Shown piece by piece: positions 2,599-7,576 of a DNA stretch of 50,534 nt. Numbering within the stretch: position 1 is the stretch's first letter; every line of letters begins with the position of its first letter. A model generated the notes under the pieces. The model made no database searches. It was not told where the DNA came from and worked only from the letters and a program-made list of their open reading frames with translations. The stretch is from Streptomyces sp. NRRL F-6676. GTDB lineage: Bacteria > Actinomycetota > Actinomycetes > Streptomycetales > Streptomycetaceae. The DNA is taken from positions 1-50,534 of the forward strand of contig NZ_JOHS01000045.1 in the NCBI RefSeq assembly GCF_000725625.1, read 5' to 3'. The translations under genes were made by a program, and so were the position numbers.

Positions 2599-5511
2599 TC
2601 AGCCCTTGTCCAGATAGCGCTCCCTGTCCTCGTCCAGCAGGGCGTCCAGTGCCGTGCGCAGGGCCGGTACGTCCTTGAGCGACGGGTCGGCCGCCACCAG
2701 TTCCGTCGCCTCCTGCCGTGCCTCGGCGATGATCTCCTCGTCGTCGATGACGGCGAGCACCCGCAGGCTGGAGCGGGCGCCGGACTGCGCCTGGCCCAGG
2801 ACGTCGCCCTCGCGGCGCTGTTCGAGGTCGATGCGGGAGAGTTCGAAGCCGTCCAGGGTGGCGGCGACCGCGTTGAGCCGCTGCCGGGCCGCGCTGGCCT
2901 CCGGCATCTCGGTGACCAGCAGGCACAGCCCGGGGGCCGAGCCGCGGCCCACCCGGCCGCGCAGCTGGTGCAGCTGGGAGACGCCGAAGCGGTCCGCGTC
3001 CATGATCACCATGGCGGTGGCGTTGGGGACGTTGACGCCGACCTCGATGACCGTCGTGGCCACCAGCACGTCCGTCTCCCCGGCGGCGAAGCGCCGCATG
3101 ACGGCGTCCTTGTCGTCGGGCTGCATCCTGCCGTGCAGCACCTCGACCGTGAGGCCCTGCAACGGGCCCTTGGCGAGTTGGTCGGCGATGTCCAGGACGG
3201 CGAGCGGGGGGCGCTTGTCGGCGTCCGCGGCGGCCGCCTTCCCGGGGTTCTCCTCCTCGTCGCCGATCCGGGGGCAGACCACGTACGCCTGGTGGCCGTT
3301 CCCGACCTCCTCGCGCACCCGTTCCCAGGCGCGGGCCAGGAAGTGCGGCTTGTCGGCGGCGGGGACGACATGGCTGGCGATGGGCGAGCGGCCGGCCGGG
3401 AGCTGGTCCAGGACGGACGTCTCCAGGTCGCCGAAGACCGTCATGGCGACCGTGCGCGGGATCGGTGTGGCGGTCATGACCAGCAGATGCGGCGGCTGTT
3501 CGCCCTTGCCGCGCAGGGCGTCCCGCTGCTCCACCCCGAACCGGTGCTGTTCGTCCACGACGACCAGACCCAGGTCGTGGAAGCGCACCTTGTCCTCGAT
3601 CAGGGCATGCGTGCCGATGACGATGCCGGCGTCTCCCGAGACCAGGTCCAGCAGCGCCTGCCGGCGGGCCGCCGCGCCCATCGAGCCGGTGAGCAGCACC
3701 ACCTTGGTGGCGTGCTCGGCGCCGCTCAGCATGCCGCCCTGGGCGAGGTCCCCCATCATCTCGGTCACCGACCGGTGGTGCTGCTGGGCCAGCACCTCGG
3801 TCGGCGCCAGCATGGCGGCCTGCCCGCCGGAGTCCACGACGGCGAGCATCGCGCGCAGCGCGACCATCGTGTTGTGGGTGACGGTGAAGTGGTCGGTCAC
3901 ATAGGCGTGGTCGGGGTGGGCGACGCTGATGCACTGCACGGGTTTGCGGCCCACGTACTCCACCGCCCGGATCGCGCGGTGGAAGGCCGCCGGGCGCGTG
4001 TGGGGGTCCGGCAGGGTGACCGACACGCCCTCGGGAAGCACGCGTGCCAGGCCGCCCAGGGAGCGCGCCAGCCAGGCCACGTCCTCCGCGAGCCGGCGGG
4101 AGGGCGTGCGCAGTCCGGTGCCGTCGCCCGAGTCCAGCAGGCCCTGGAGGAGGGCGAGGCGGTTCTTGACCGTGGTGTTCCGGTACGCGGCCGGGAGGTG
4201 CGGCGGGGCCTGGGGGCCGGTCAGGGCGGCGCCCAGGGCGTAGGGGTCCTCGGGGGGCTCCGGGCCCAGGTCGGCCGGGGTCACCGGGGGGATGTGCCAC
4301 TTCGGGGTGCCGTCCGGGGCGAGGGTGTCCAGCCGGATCTCCCGGGCCGTCCTCACCTTGGCGGGCGCGGAGGGGGCGGTGGTGACGATCCACAGGTGCT
4401 CGTCGTCGCACTCGACGGTGGACCCGTCGTCCAGCACCAGCCGCCACACGTCCCGTTCGCCCTGCGGGAAGACGCCGTCGACCGGTGCCACCTCGCCGCT
4501 GGGCACCACGACCTCGTCGCCGACGCGCACCTCGCCCATGGGCCGGAAGCCCGTCGGCGTGAGGACGAGCGCGTCCAGCGGCTGTGCCTTGCCCGAGCCG
4601 ACCTCGCCCTGGAGCAGCCGGTGCATGGGGTGGTCGGTGGCGAGGTCGTCGAAGATCTCCCGGGAGACCGACCGCTGGCCCTCGGTGAGGGTGAACGGCA
4701 GGCGGTCGTCGAACGCCGTGAGCAGGCCGTCGGGCTTCGGTGTCCGGGGTGTGGCGCGCAGTTGGGCGTCGTCGTACCGGCGGCGGGCCAGGGCGACCTG
4801 GAGGACGAAGGCCTCGTCCCACTTCAGCCGGGCGCGGGCGTCCTCGACGTCGGCCCGGGTGCGCGGGCGGTGGATCTTCACCAGGGCCTCGGGCAGGGTG
4901 GCCAGACCCCGGCCCGCGCGCAGGGACTCCGGCAGCGGGTCCAGCGCCTCCTGGGCGCTCGGCAGCACCGTCTGGACCGCCTTGGCGAGCTTCCAGGACT
5001 CCATCTTCGCCGTGGCCGGATAGAGCGGGATGAGCGCGCCCGCCCAGCTGTCGACGGCCTCCTCCGCGCCCTCGCCCCGCAGCAACTCGTACGCGGGATG
5101 CGCCAGTTGGAGACGGCGGTTGAAGACGGAGACCTTGCCGGAGAACATCGCGCGGGTGCCCGGCAGCAGCTCCTTGTGCGGCTTGTGCACGCCGTTGCCG
5201 AAGAAGACCAGCGTCAGCCGGCCGCTGCCGTCCGTGATCGTGACCTCCAGGCGTTGGCCCTTGCCGCGCGGCGCCCGGGCGGAGGCGAAGCTGTGCAGCC
5301 GGGCGTCGGCGACCTGCGCCACCACCGTGACGTGCTCGTCCATCGGCAGGTCGGCGAGGTGTGTGAGCTGCCCGCGCTCCTCGTATCTGCGCGGGTAGTG
5401 GTGCAGGAGGTCGCCGACGGTGTGCAGGCCGAGGTGCTCGGCCATCACCTTCGCGGTGGCGGGGCCGAGCACCTTCTTCAGAGGTTCGTCCAGTGCGGGC
5501 ACGAGATCCAT
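2599..5511 (-). CDS. recG: ATP-dependent DNA helicase RecG with embedded intein
   Basis: RecG remodels stalled replication forks and branched DNA. The 970-residue precursor has the N-terminal wedge/OB region, then the helicase core: Walker A GEVGSGK at 302-308, DEQHRFG (motif II), TATPIPRT (motif III) and QLRGRVGRG (motif VI) near the end. Residues 309-547 are an intein that separates K308 from T548, the two residues that normally adjoin in GSGKT. Removing 239 residues leaves 731, the usual actinobacterial RecG length. ATG at 5511 (MDLVPALDEPLKK) was preferred to an in-frame start at 5568. Without splicing the ATP site would be broken, so function should depend on splicing. Host identity is firm. 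Confidence 0.95.
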   Translation of the reverse strand: MDLVPALDEPLKKVLGPATAKVMAEHLGLHTVGDLLHHYPRRYEERGQLTHLADLPMDEHVTVVAQVADARLHSFASARAPRGKGQRLEVTITDGSGRLTLVFFGNGVHKPHKELLPGTRAMFSGKVSVFNRRLQLAHPAYELLRGEGAEEAVDSWAGALIPLYPATAKMESWKLAKAVQTVLPSAQEALDPLPESLRAGRGLATLPEALVKIHRPRTRADVEDARARLKWDEAFVLQVALARRRYDDAQLRATPRTPKPDGLLTAFDDRLPFTLTEGQRSVSREIFDDLATDHPMHRLLQGEVGSGKAQPLDALVLTPTGFRPMGEVRVGDEVVVPSGEVAPVDGVFPQGERDVWRLVLDDGSTVECDDEHLWIVTTAPSAPAKVRTAREIRLDTLAPDGTPKWHIPPVTPADLGPEPPEDPYALGAALTGPQAPPHLPAAYRNTTVKNRLALLQGLLDSGDGTGLRTPSRRLAEDVAWLARSLGGLARVLPEGVSVTLPDPHTRPAAFHRAIRAVEYVGRKPVQCISVAHPDHAYVTDHFTVTHNTMVALRAMLAVVDSGGQAAMLAPTEVLAQQHHRSVTEMMGDLAQGGMLSGAEHATKVVLLTGSMGAAARRQALLDLVSGDAGIVIGTHALIEDKVRFHDLGLVVVDEQHRFGVEQRDALRGKGEQPPHLLVMTATPIPRTVAMTVFGDLETSVLDQLPAGRSPIASHVVPAADKPHFLARAWERVREEVGNGHQAYVVCPRIGDEEENPGKAAAADADKRPPLAVLDIADQLAKGPLQGLTVEVLHGRMQPDDKDAVMRRFAAGETDVLVATTVIEVGVNVPNATAMVIMDADRFGVSQLHQLRGRVGRGSAPGLCLLVTEMPEASAARQRLNAVAATLDGFELSRIDLEQRREGDVLGQAQSGARSSLRVLAVIDDEEIIAEARQEATELVAADPSLKDVPALRTALDALLDEDRERYLDKG
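3871..4587 (-). other. class 3-like mini-intein in RecG P-loop
   Basis: This 717-nt in-frame segment encodes 239 residues, beginning with Ala (AQPLDALVLTPTG) and ending THN before Thr+1. Block A is TPTGFRPMGEVRVGDEVVV. Block B is DDGSTVECDDEHLW, with His64 and Trp66. Block F is VQCISV with Cys219, and block G ends T237-H238-N239. The missing N-terminal Cys/Ser plus Trp (B:12), Cys (F:4) and Thr (G:5) is the signature of class 3 inteins, which start splicing from the block F cysteine. Residues 115-124 (PYALGAALTG) and 143-158 (RLALLQGLLDSGDGTG) look like remnants of a LAGLIDADG endonuclease, too close together to be a working nuclease. Boundaries follow from the interrupted GSGK/T motif. Confidence 0.93.
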
Positions 5512-5716: not shown

Positions 5717-7572
5717 ATGGATTCCGAGATCTCACAGCCCTCCCAGCCCTCCCGGCCCCCGGTGCCCCCGGCCGCCGCGCCCCATACGTTCCAGGTCGAT
5801 CTGCGCGGTCTCGTCGACCTCCTCTCCCACCACCTCTACTCCAGCCCCAAGGTCTATCTGCGCGAGCTGTTGCAGAACGCCGTGGACGCGATCACCGCCC
5901 GGCGCGCCGAACAGCCGGACACCCCGGCGACCGTGCGGCTGCACACCGGGGACGGCGAACTGCGCGTGGTGGACACCGGCATCGGGCTCACCGAACCCGA
6001 CGTGCACCAGCTGCTCGCCACGATCGGCCGCAGCTCCAAGCGCGACGACGGGCTCCAGGCCGCCCGCTCCGACTTCCTCGGCCAGTTCGGCATCGGACTG
6101 CTCGCCTGCTTCGTCGTCGCCGAGCGGATCCGGGTGGTCAGCCGCAGCGCCCGTACGCCCGACGCGGCCCCCGTGGAGTGGACGGCCACCGACGACGGCT
6201 CCTACACCGTGCGCACCCTCCCCGAGGAGGCGCACCCCGAGCCCGGCACCACCGTGCACCTGGTGGCGCGGGCCGGGGCCGGCGAGTGGCTGAGCGGGGA
6301 GCGGGTGCTGTCGCTGGCCCGCGACTTCGGGGCGCTGCTCCCGTACGACGTGCGCGTGGACGGCGAGGCGGTCACCGAACTGCCCGCCCCCTGGGACCGC
6401 CCCTACGCCTCGCCCGCCGCCCGCCGGGTCGCCCTGGCCCGGCACTGCCACGACCTGTTCGGCTTCACCCCGCTGGACTCCATCGAACTCGACGTGCCGC
6501 TGGCCGGCGTACGGGGTGTCGCCTACGTCCTGCCCACCGCCGTCAGCCCGGCCCAGCGCGCGAGCCACCGCGTCCACCTGAAGGGCATGCTCCTCACCGA
6601 GCGGGCCGAACAGCTCCTGCCGGACTGGGCGTTCTTCGTGCGCTGCGTCCTCGACACGGACAGCCTGCGCCCCACCGCCTCCCGCGAGTCCCTGTACGAG
6701 GACGAGACCCTGGCCGGGGTCCGCGACGCCCTCGGGGAACGCATCCGCTCCTGGCTGACCGGCCTCGCCGCCCAGGACCCCGAACGGCTCACGGCGTTCC
6801 TCTCCGTGCACCATCTCGGCGTCAAGTCGCTGGCCCGGCACGACACGGAGATGCTGCGCACGATGCTGCCGTGGCTGCCGTTCGAGACGACCGACGGACG
6901 GCTCTCCCTGGAGGAGTTCGCCCAGCGCCACCCCGTGGTGCACTTCACGCGCACGGTCGAGGAGTACCGGCAGGTCGCCCCCATCGCCTCCGCCCAGGGC
7001 ATCGGCGTCGTCAACGGCGGCTACACCTACGACAGCGATCTCGTCGAGGCGCTGCCCTCGGTGCGGCCCGGCACGACCGTCGCCGAACTCGACTCCGACA
7101 CCGTCACCGCGCACCTGGACGCCGTCGACCCGGCCGAGGAACTCGCCCTGTCCGGCTTCCTGGCCGCCGCACGCACCGCCCTCGACCCGCTGGGCTGCGA
7201 CATCGCCCTGCGCGCCTTCCACCCCCTGTCGGTGCCCGCACTGCACCTCGACGACCGGGCCGCCCGCCACGAACAGGCCCGCGCCGAGGCCGAGGAACAG
7301 GCCGACGACCTGTGGGCCGGCATCCTCGGCTCCCTGCGCGGCAGCGCACCCCGCGCCCGCCTGGTCCTCAACCACCTCAACCCGCTGGTCCGCCGCATCG
7401 CCGCCCTCGGCGCACCCGAACTCATCGGCACCGCCGTCGAATCCCTGTACGGACAGGCGCTGCTGCGCGCCCAGCGCCCCCTGCGGCCCGCCGACTCCGC
7501 CCTGCTCAACCGCGCGTTCCTCGGCCTGCTGGAGTGGGCCACCCACACCGACTCCCCGGAGGGCGGCACCCG

Positions 7573-7576
<4 letters not shown>
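5717..7576 (+). CDS. divergent Hsp90/HtpG-family ATPase
   Basis: The 619-residue protein is close to HtpG length. The GHKL ATPase motifs are present: LRELLQNAVDA (about residue 50), DTGIGL, and FGQFGIGLLACF-like GQFGIGLLACFVVAERI (about 120). The middle domain keeps the HtpG pattern LLPDWAFFVRCVLDTDSL followed by SRES, which corresponds to the SRE loop carrying the catalytic arginine. The C-terminal third is poorly conserved and there is no MEEVD-like tail. It is probably an ATP-driven chaperone, client unknown. Its stop overlaps the start of the TPR-like gene as ATGA at 7573-7576, implying coupled translation and likely partnership. It lies between recG and rsmD, which I recall being adjacent in S. 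coelicolor. Confidence 0.85.

Follow-up and report, generated by a model that had tools for sequence, protein, structure and literature searches.

Class 3 inteins in the RecG Walker A motif of Streptomyces and the one-sided decay of their homing endonuclease

The DNA analysed here (the window) is a stretch of 50,534 nucleotides from Streptomyces sp. NRRL F-6676, contig NZ_JOHS01000045.1, and carries a recG gene that is split within its Walker A motif (P-loop) by a 239-residue segment. We conclude with high confidence that this segment is a class 3 intein that would splice to leave a RecG of 731 residues and has lost half of its endonuclease. Sequence, homologues and predicted fold alike support its location in the Walker A motif and its class 3 signature. 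Taken alone it is ordinary, one more class 3 intein in a P-loop ATPase; the new point is the repeated one-sided loss of the endonuclease, rather than the intein itself.

The recG open reading frame (ORF) encodes 970 residues on the minus strand, from an ATG start at position 5511 to position 2602. The stop-free segment of 239 codons lies in frame, exactly between K308 (GEVGSGK) and the following Thr (TMVALRA), and the segment, frame and coordinates given by the original prediction proved exact. The gene is thus divided as follows:

4588..5511, minus strand: recG N-extein, residues 1-308, ending GEVGSGK
3871..4587, minus strand: class 3 intein, 239 residues from Ala1 to Asn239, RecG residues 309-547
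2602..3870, minus strand: recG C-extein, residues 548-970, starting with Thr+1 (TMVALRA); the stop codon is at 2599-2601

As foreseen, removing the segment restores both GSGK-T and the length of RecG. The RecG profile NF008167 matches on either side and skips the insert (model positions 3-319 and 318-744), and its joint score of 1119.3 bits against a cut-off of 995, covering model positions 3-744, identifies the host as the RecG helicase. The only other NF008167 matches in the whole assembly, tabulated as 99.99% complete, are two sub-cut-off pieces of one 1213-residue frame, presumably Mfd, so that the interrupted recG is the only RecG found there. The source genome holds one copy of the intein (E up to 1).

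A homologous insert occupies the same K/T bond in 94 RecG loci, with 90 distinct intein DNA sequences (a further locus, L124, gave no parse and lies outside the 94), so the insert in the window is more than a chance feature. Ala1, D61, H64, W66, C219, T237, H238, N239 and Thr+1 are identical in all 94. Position 1 thus has no Cys, Ser or Thr, which is part of the class 3 definition in PMC3196547. W66 stands at B12, C219 at F4 and T237 at G5, positions set by alignment to DnaBi1 of Mycobacterium smegmatis (Msm) and to gp41-1, while H64 stands at B10, H238-N239 close the intein and Thr+1 is the nucleophile. The intein in GSGK/T, its ends, its F and G blocks and its Trp-Cys-Thr (WCT) pattern had all been recognised correctly by the original prediction, but the B block, which it read as TxxH, is really DxxH (D61 to H64), as in the M. 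smegmatis class 3 intein. The predicted structure is a Hint fold. The splicing blocks are:

4549..4587, minus strand: block A, residues 1-13, position 1 without Cys, Ser or Thr
4381..4425, minus strand: block B, residues 55-69, including D61, H64 (B10) and W66 (B12)
3871..3975, minus strand: blocks F and G, residues 205-239, including C219 (F4), T237 (G5), H238 and N239

An ordinary lineage-specific loop or domain of RecG would also be in frame and long-lived and need give no Pfam call above cut-off. Such an insertion is extremely improbable, as the segment splits the Walker A K/T pair, is missing from most Streptomyces RecG proteins, and carries a full intein signature with a predicted Hint fold. 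All 40 fetched loci picked for an unbroken RecG match read straight through GSGK-T.

By analogy with other class 3 inteins, Cys219, activated by His64 and Thr237 and positioned with Trp66, would attack the bond before Ala1 directly. A branched thioester would form at this block-F cysteine, after which the chain would move to Thr+1; Asn239 would cyclise with the help of His238, and the exteins would join as GSGK-T, a complete Walker A motif. The unspliced 970-residue precursor should have no ATPase activity. The intein would persist because RecG function needs splicing, and its removal would be possible only by exact deletion.

Several observations weigh against an actively splicing intein. Pfam gave no Hint or LAGLIDADG domain above cut-off in the window intein; the sub-cut-off matches were Hint_2 (E 0.031) and a spurious E1-E2 ATPase (E 0.016), with none at 0.01. 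The literature searched on RecG inteins contained no demonstration of splicing for any of them. RecG is dispensable in many bacteria, so an unspliced precursor may be tolerable for a while. Between the window and its relative L095, the ratio of nonsynonymous to synonymous substitution rates (dN/dS) was 0.26 in the splicing blocks, exceeding the 0.16 of the extein, and 0.60 in the middle of the intein. Finally, the class 3 intein Arth_1007, with its signature partly lost, is reported to be dead; sequence alone is no proof of activity.

These points bear on whether the window intein is splicing-dead, a recent pseudogene in a dispensable helicase, which we consider very unlikely. The deletion of an endonuclease half, the fast-evolving middle, the long branch of the window and L095 on the intein tree (0.44) and the precedent of dead class 3 inteins would all suit a pseudogene. 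However, every signature residue is kept and the frame is open, the blocks have been under purifying selection since the split from L095, and the constraint on the extein would not last if the sole RecG were inactive.

Splicing could instead be conditional, with a redox or stress switch holding RecG inactive, as in M. smegmatis DnaBi1. Class 3 chemistry hinges on one Cys, H2O2 is reported to block DnaBi1 splicing via a Cys48-Cys118 disulfide, and the window intein contains just two cysteines, C60 and C219, each conserved in 94/94 loci. We nevertheless judge such a switch improbable: Cys48 aligns with Val47 of the window intein, and C60 lies at another place and is also found in phage, PhoH-type and gp41-1-type inteins. 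A switch of the DnaBi1 kind itself was set aside and kept only as an improbable alternative, its partner cysteine being absent.

Within the class 3 intein, the original prediction overlooked half of a homing endonuclease domain:

4195..4245, minus strand: residues 115-131, the scar left by the first LAGLIDADG half, including a short helix, DPYALGAALTG; of the 74 positions in L042 residues 131-204, 7 are left
4009..4194, minus strand: retained second LAGLIDADG half, residues 132-193, with helices at 140-152 and 164-176 and strands at 158-160, 180-184 and 187-191

The second half is predicted to be folded, and its residues R143, G149, W172, S176, G179 and A181 are invariant in 94/94 loci, with R175 in 93. 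PF14528 was not detected in the window intein by Pfam, and the intein is not among the 22 of 49 aligned members in which LAGLIDADG_3 was called. A mini-intein has no homing endonuclease domain; with the second half kept, endonuclease-degenerate intein is the better label.

Intein lengths at the 94 loci range from 236 to 341 residues, 48 of them being 338, 339 or 341. The 55-genome survey comprised 34 inteins of at least 335 residues and 21 shorter ones, of which the window intein is the shortest; its ancestor would be a 338-residue form that had a LAGLIDADG homing endonuclease. The full and short states changed at least 13 times on the RecG extein tree and 10 times on the intein tree, counts that cannot separate loss from replacement. 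When 44 short inteins were aligned to L042, 8-77% of the first half (131-204) was kept and 90-100% of the second (205-277), these percentages being group means or single rows with L096 and L097 left out. This one-sided loss was seen in Actinomadura, in the window and L095 (second half about 90% retained), in the lydicus-type clade, in the WMMB 322-type clade, in L034 and in 15 scattered rows, and by eye the Streptomyces DnaB inteins of this class (L087, L088 and L091) show the same pattern. The match covers residues 132-186 or more in 54 of the 55 RecG inteins of the 295-genome survey, as read from the coordinate table; the exception is G233, where a stretch of 121 codons between residues 155 and 195 is unmatched. 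Of the full forms, 46/48 have Asp as the acid of the second motif, but only 9/46 short forms have Asp or Glu there, and both LAGLIDADG acids are kept in 38/48 versus 7/46.

Since the first half and its acid are lost, homing should be dead. Homing may die first, with deletions then striking the first half repeatedly while the second half stays. We suggest, tentatively and with some doubt, that the second half has been co-opted into the splicing unit as a structural element, its loss never being tolerated since splicing needs it. In the simplest mechanism, the helix-strand core of this half would pack on the Hint domain and aid folding or splicing. For 16 short pairs pooled, dN/dS was 0.20 in the blocks, 0.26 in residues 164-183, 0.41 in half 2, 0.44 in the linker and 0.53 in the tail. 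Half 2 thus stands out in its core only. Against the proposed role, half 2 as a whole is no lower than the linker in these pairs, and between the window and L095 it changes freely (proportions of nonsynonymous and synonymous differences, pN and pS, of 0.173 versus 0.273). Furthermore, the Msm and Mle DnaB class 3 inteins (139-145 residues) splice without an endonuclease, so dependence on the half-domain cannot hold for class 3 generally. If the proposal is true, the lineage is a natural repeated experiment placing the scaffold dependence of splicing in one half-domain; the repeated loss of one half while the other stays could be tested at the bench.

Both trees join the window and L095 as a supported pair (99 and 100/99), and their neighbours on the extein tree, L178 and L202, are without the intein. 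Synonymous divergence (dS) within the pair is 0.253 in the extein and 0.253 in the intein blocks, a ratio of 1.00, so that the intein predates the split and looks vertically inherited, a claim limited to this pair. The blocks of the window intein are 88-89% like those of several S. lydicus-type short inteins, although the exteins are about 80% alike, so a horizontal origin from that source was considered. The intein tree places the window and L095 on a long branch in the main Streptomyces clade, but the alternative tree joining them to the lydicus-type set was not rejected (approximately unbiased test, p-AU 0.454).

More widely, median intein/extein dS ratios for 574 overlapping pairs were 2.57 for full-full (292), 2.53 for mixed (148) and 1.35 for short-short pairs (134). 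For non-overlapping pairs the ratios were 1.81 for full (17), 0.96 for short (16) and 2.33 for mixed (7), with full and short differing at p 0.017 (Mann-Whitney). Full-length inteins often diverge far more (L047/L061, ratio 7.4) or far less (L042/L063, 0.33) than their host genes, as expected from replacement or homing. The contrast with short inteins depends heavily on a single clade: counting against a general claim on mobility, 10 of the 16 short pairs are of the lydicus type, and short pairs outside that clade reach ratios of 3.03 (Actinomadura) and 2.69. Occupied and empty alleles switched at least 20 times on a tree of 92 occupied and 40 empty rows, a rough figure given that the empty rows were picked for an unbroken RecG match and that FastTree support was partial. 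L004, with its short N-extein, and L020, whose upstream frame is disrupted, were left out of the extein/occupancy tree and the dS-ratio tests, and L096 and L097 out of the intein tree. In L020, a Streptomyces phaeoluteigriseus record, the frame preceding the Walker A motif of RecG first reads as non-RecG sequence and then turns into RecG, as from a frameshift or assembly error.

RecG is present in 294 of the 295 Streptomyces genomes surveyed. An intein match at E 1e-5 was found in 94 genomes, 55 of which hold RecG inteins as sorted by identity (at least 59%) and a split RecG match; the weaker matches that were fetched belonged to other hosts. The comparison of recG across Streptomyces that the original prediction had called for thus reveals a frequent insert beside uninterrupted genes, and its view of RecG as a little-described host overrated the novelty. 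RecG is named once as an intein host, in a table of a 2018 review (PMC5874633), and the literature searched on RecG inteins described none beyond that entry. In the genome collection a relative of the intein is encoded at 133 loci; the best-scoring 80 were read, a selection favouring long matches that was not applied in the 295-genome survey. Outside Streptomyces, Actinomadura (L037, L038) and another genus of the same order (L105) have RecG inteins; a genome from a different class (G344; 56% identity, unparsed 1062-residue frame) probably has one too. From 338-residue endonuclease forms down to 239 residues (236 in Actinomadura), these inteins lie at one bond beside many empty alleles, so that extant relatives allow a comparison of steps in the homing cycle. 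Annotation is affected as well, since many of the proteins listed have no more specific name than 'helicase-related protein' or 'DEAD/DEAH box helicase'.

In six genomes (G001, G099, G119, G121, G157 and G224) the RecG match is broken or partial and there is no match to the RecG intein; the split or shortened match in G119, G121, G157 and G224 could stem from a frameshift, a contig end or an insert of another kind. In the window, a 619-residue ORF at 5717-7576 (plus strand) is divergent from the adjoining recG and resembles an Hsp90-type ATPase by eye.

The same splicing-block pattern is found in WCT inteins of other P-loop ATPases: PhoH (MRGR/T), a conjugation-type type IV secretion system (T4SS) ATPase (QGN/T), an AAA ATPase, and phage RecA-like, PhoH-like, helicase and terminase proteins. 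Identity over the matched parts is 34-54% in the rows read. Pfam names the nine hosts scanned as PhoH (L082), T4SS conjugative ATPase (L085), DnaB (L086) and AAA protein (L090), and in viral contigs as RecA-like (L151), PhoH-like (L152, L154), SF1-type helicase (L161) and terminase (L168). The viral scan yielded 22 contigs, and 10 of the 12 inspected had the whole pattern with FTVTHN or near-FTVTHN ends; by sequence, they fit a phage origin of class 3 inteins, an idea already published. The cross-host motif search parsed 23 inteins from 43 loci (20 unparsed). Its motif presets W/C/T, making its 33/33 conservation circular and unused as evidence, and four of its DnaB rows include extra N-terminal residues, so their lengths are too long. 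The cross-host tree contains WCT-bearing inteins picked by motif only, with no class 1 outgroup.

Among these other hosts, the PhoH inteins at MRGR/T (L082, L083, L084, L092, L093, L125 and L135; 355-362 residues, from Streptomyces and other actinobacteria) lie outside Walker A. In L089 (Streptomyces G128, conjugation-type ATPase) the intein has Cys at position 1 plus the W/C/T pattern and could represent a form that is mixed or intermediate between classes 1 and 3; its sister inteins at the same bond, L085 and L094, start with Ala. L090 (Streptomyces G131, AAA protein) has a WCT-type intein after GTGK that starts Phe-Cys. The DnaB of L088 (Streptomyces G105) has two insert-like segments, a class 3 intein after GK and a downstream Hint-like segment starting CVTASTRV.

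The mutualism of Hint and homing endonuclease domains (HINT-HEN) proposed for archaeal TliVMA and MvuTFIIB offers a parallel, as an endonuclease scaffold may be kept since splicing needs it (PMC8966425). Those cases involve a whole endonuclease domain in class 1 inteins, whereas the RecG intein involves one half-domain in class 3, as judged by comparison only. The full-length Streptomyces RecG inteins (e.g. L042, 338 residues; 66% identity to the window intein over aligned columns) share its bond and signature, but have both LAGLIDADG halves. The mycobacterial DnaB class 3 mini-inteins (Msm DnaBi1, 6bs8; M. chimaera DnaB1, 6rix) have the same WCT residues, DxxH and HN end, and likewise lack an N-terminal nucleophile, are inserted after the Walker A lysine and have a Hint fold. 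The window intein differs from them in its RecG host, its +1 Thr and the absence of the DnaBi1 redox partner Cys48, and at 239 residues against 139-145 it is longer because its second LAGLIDADG half has been kept.
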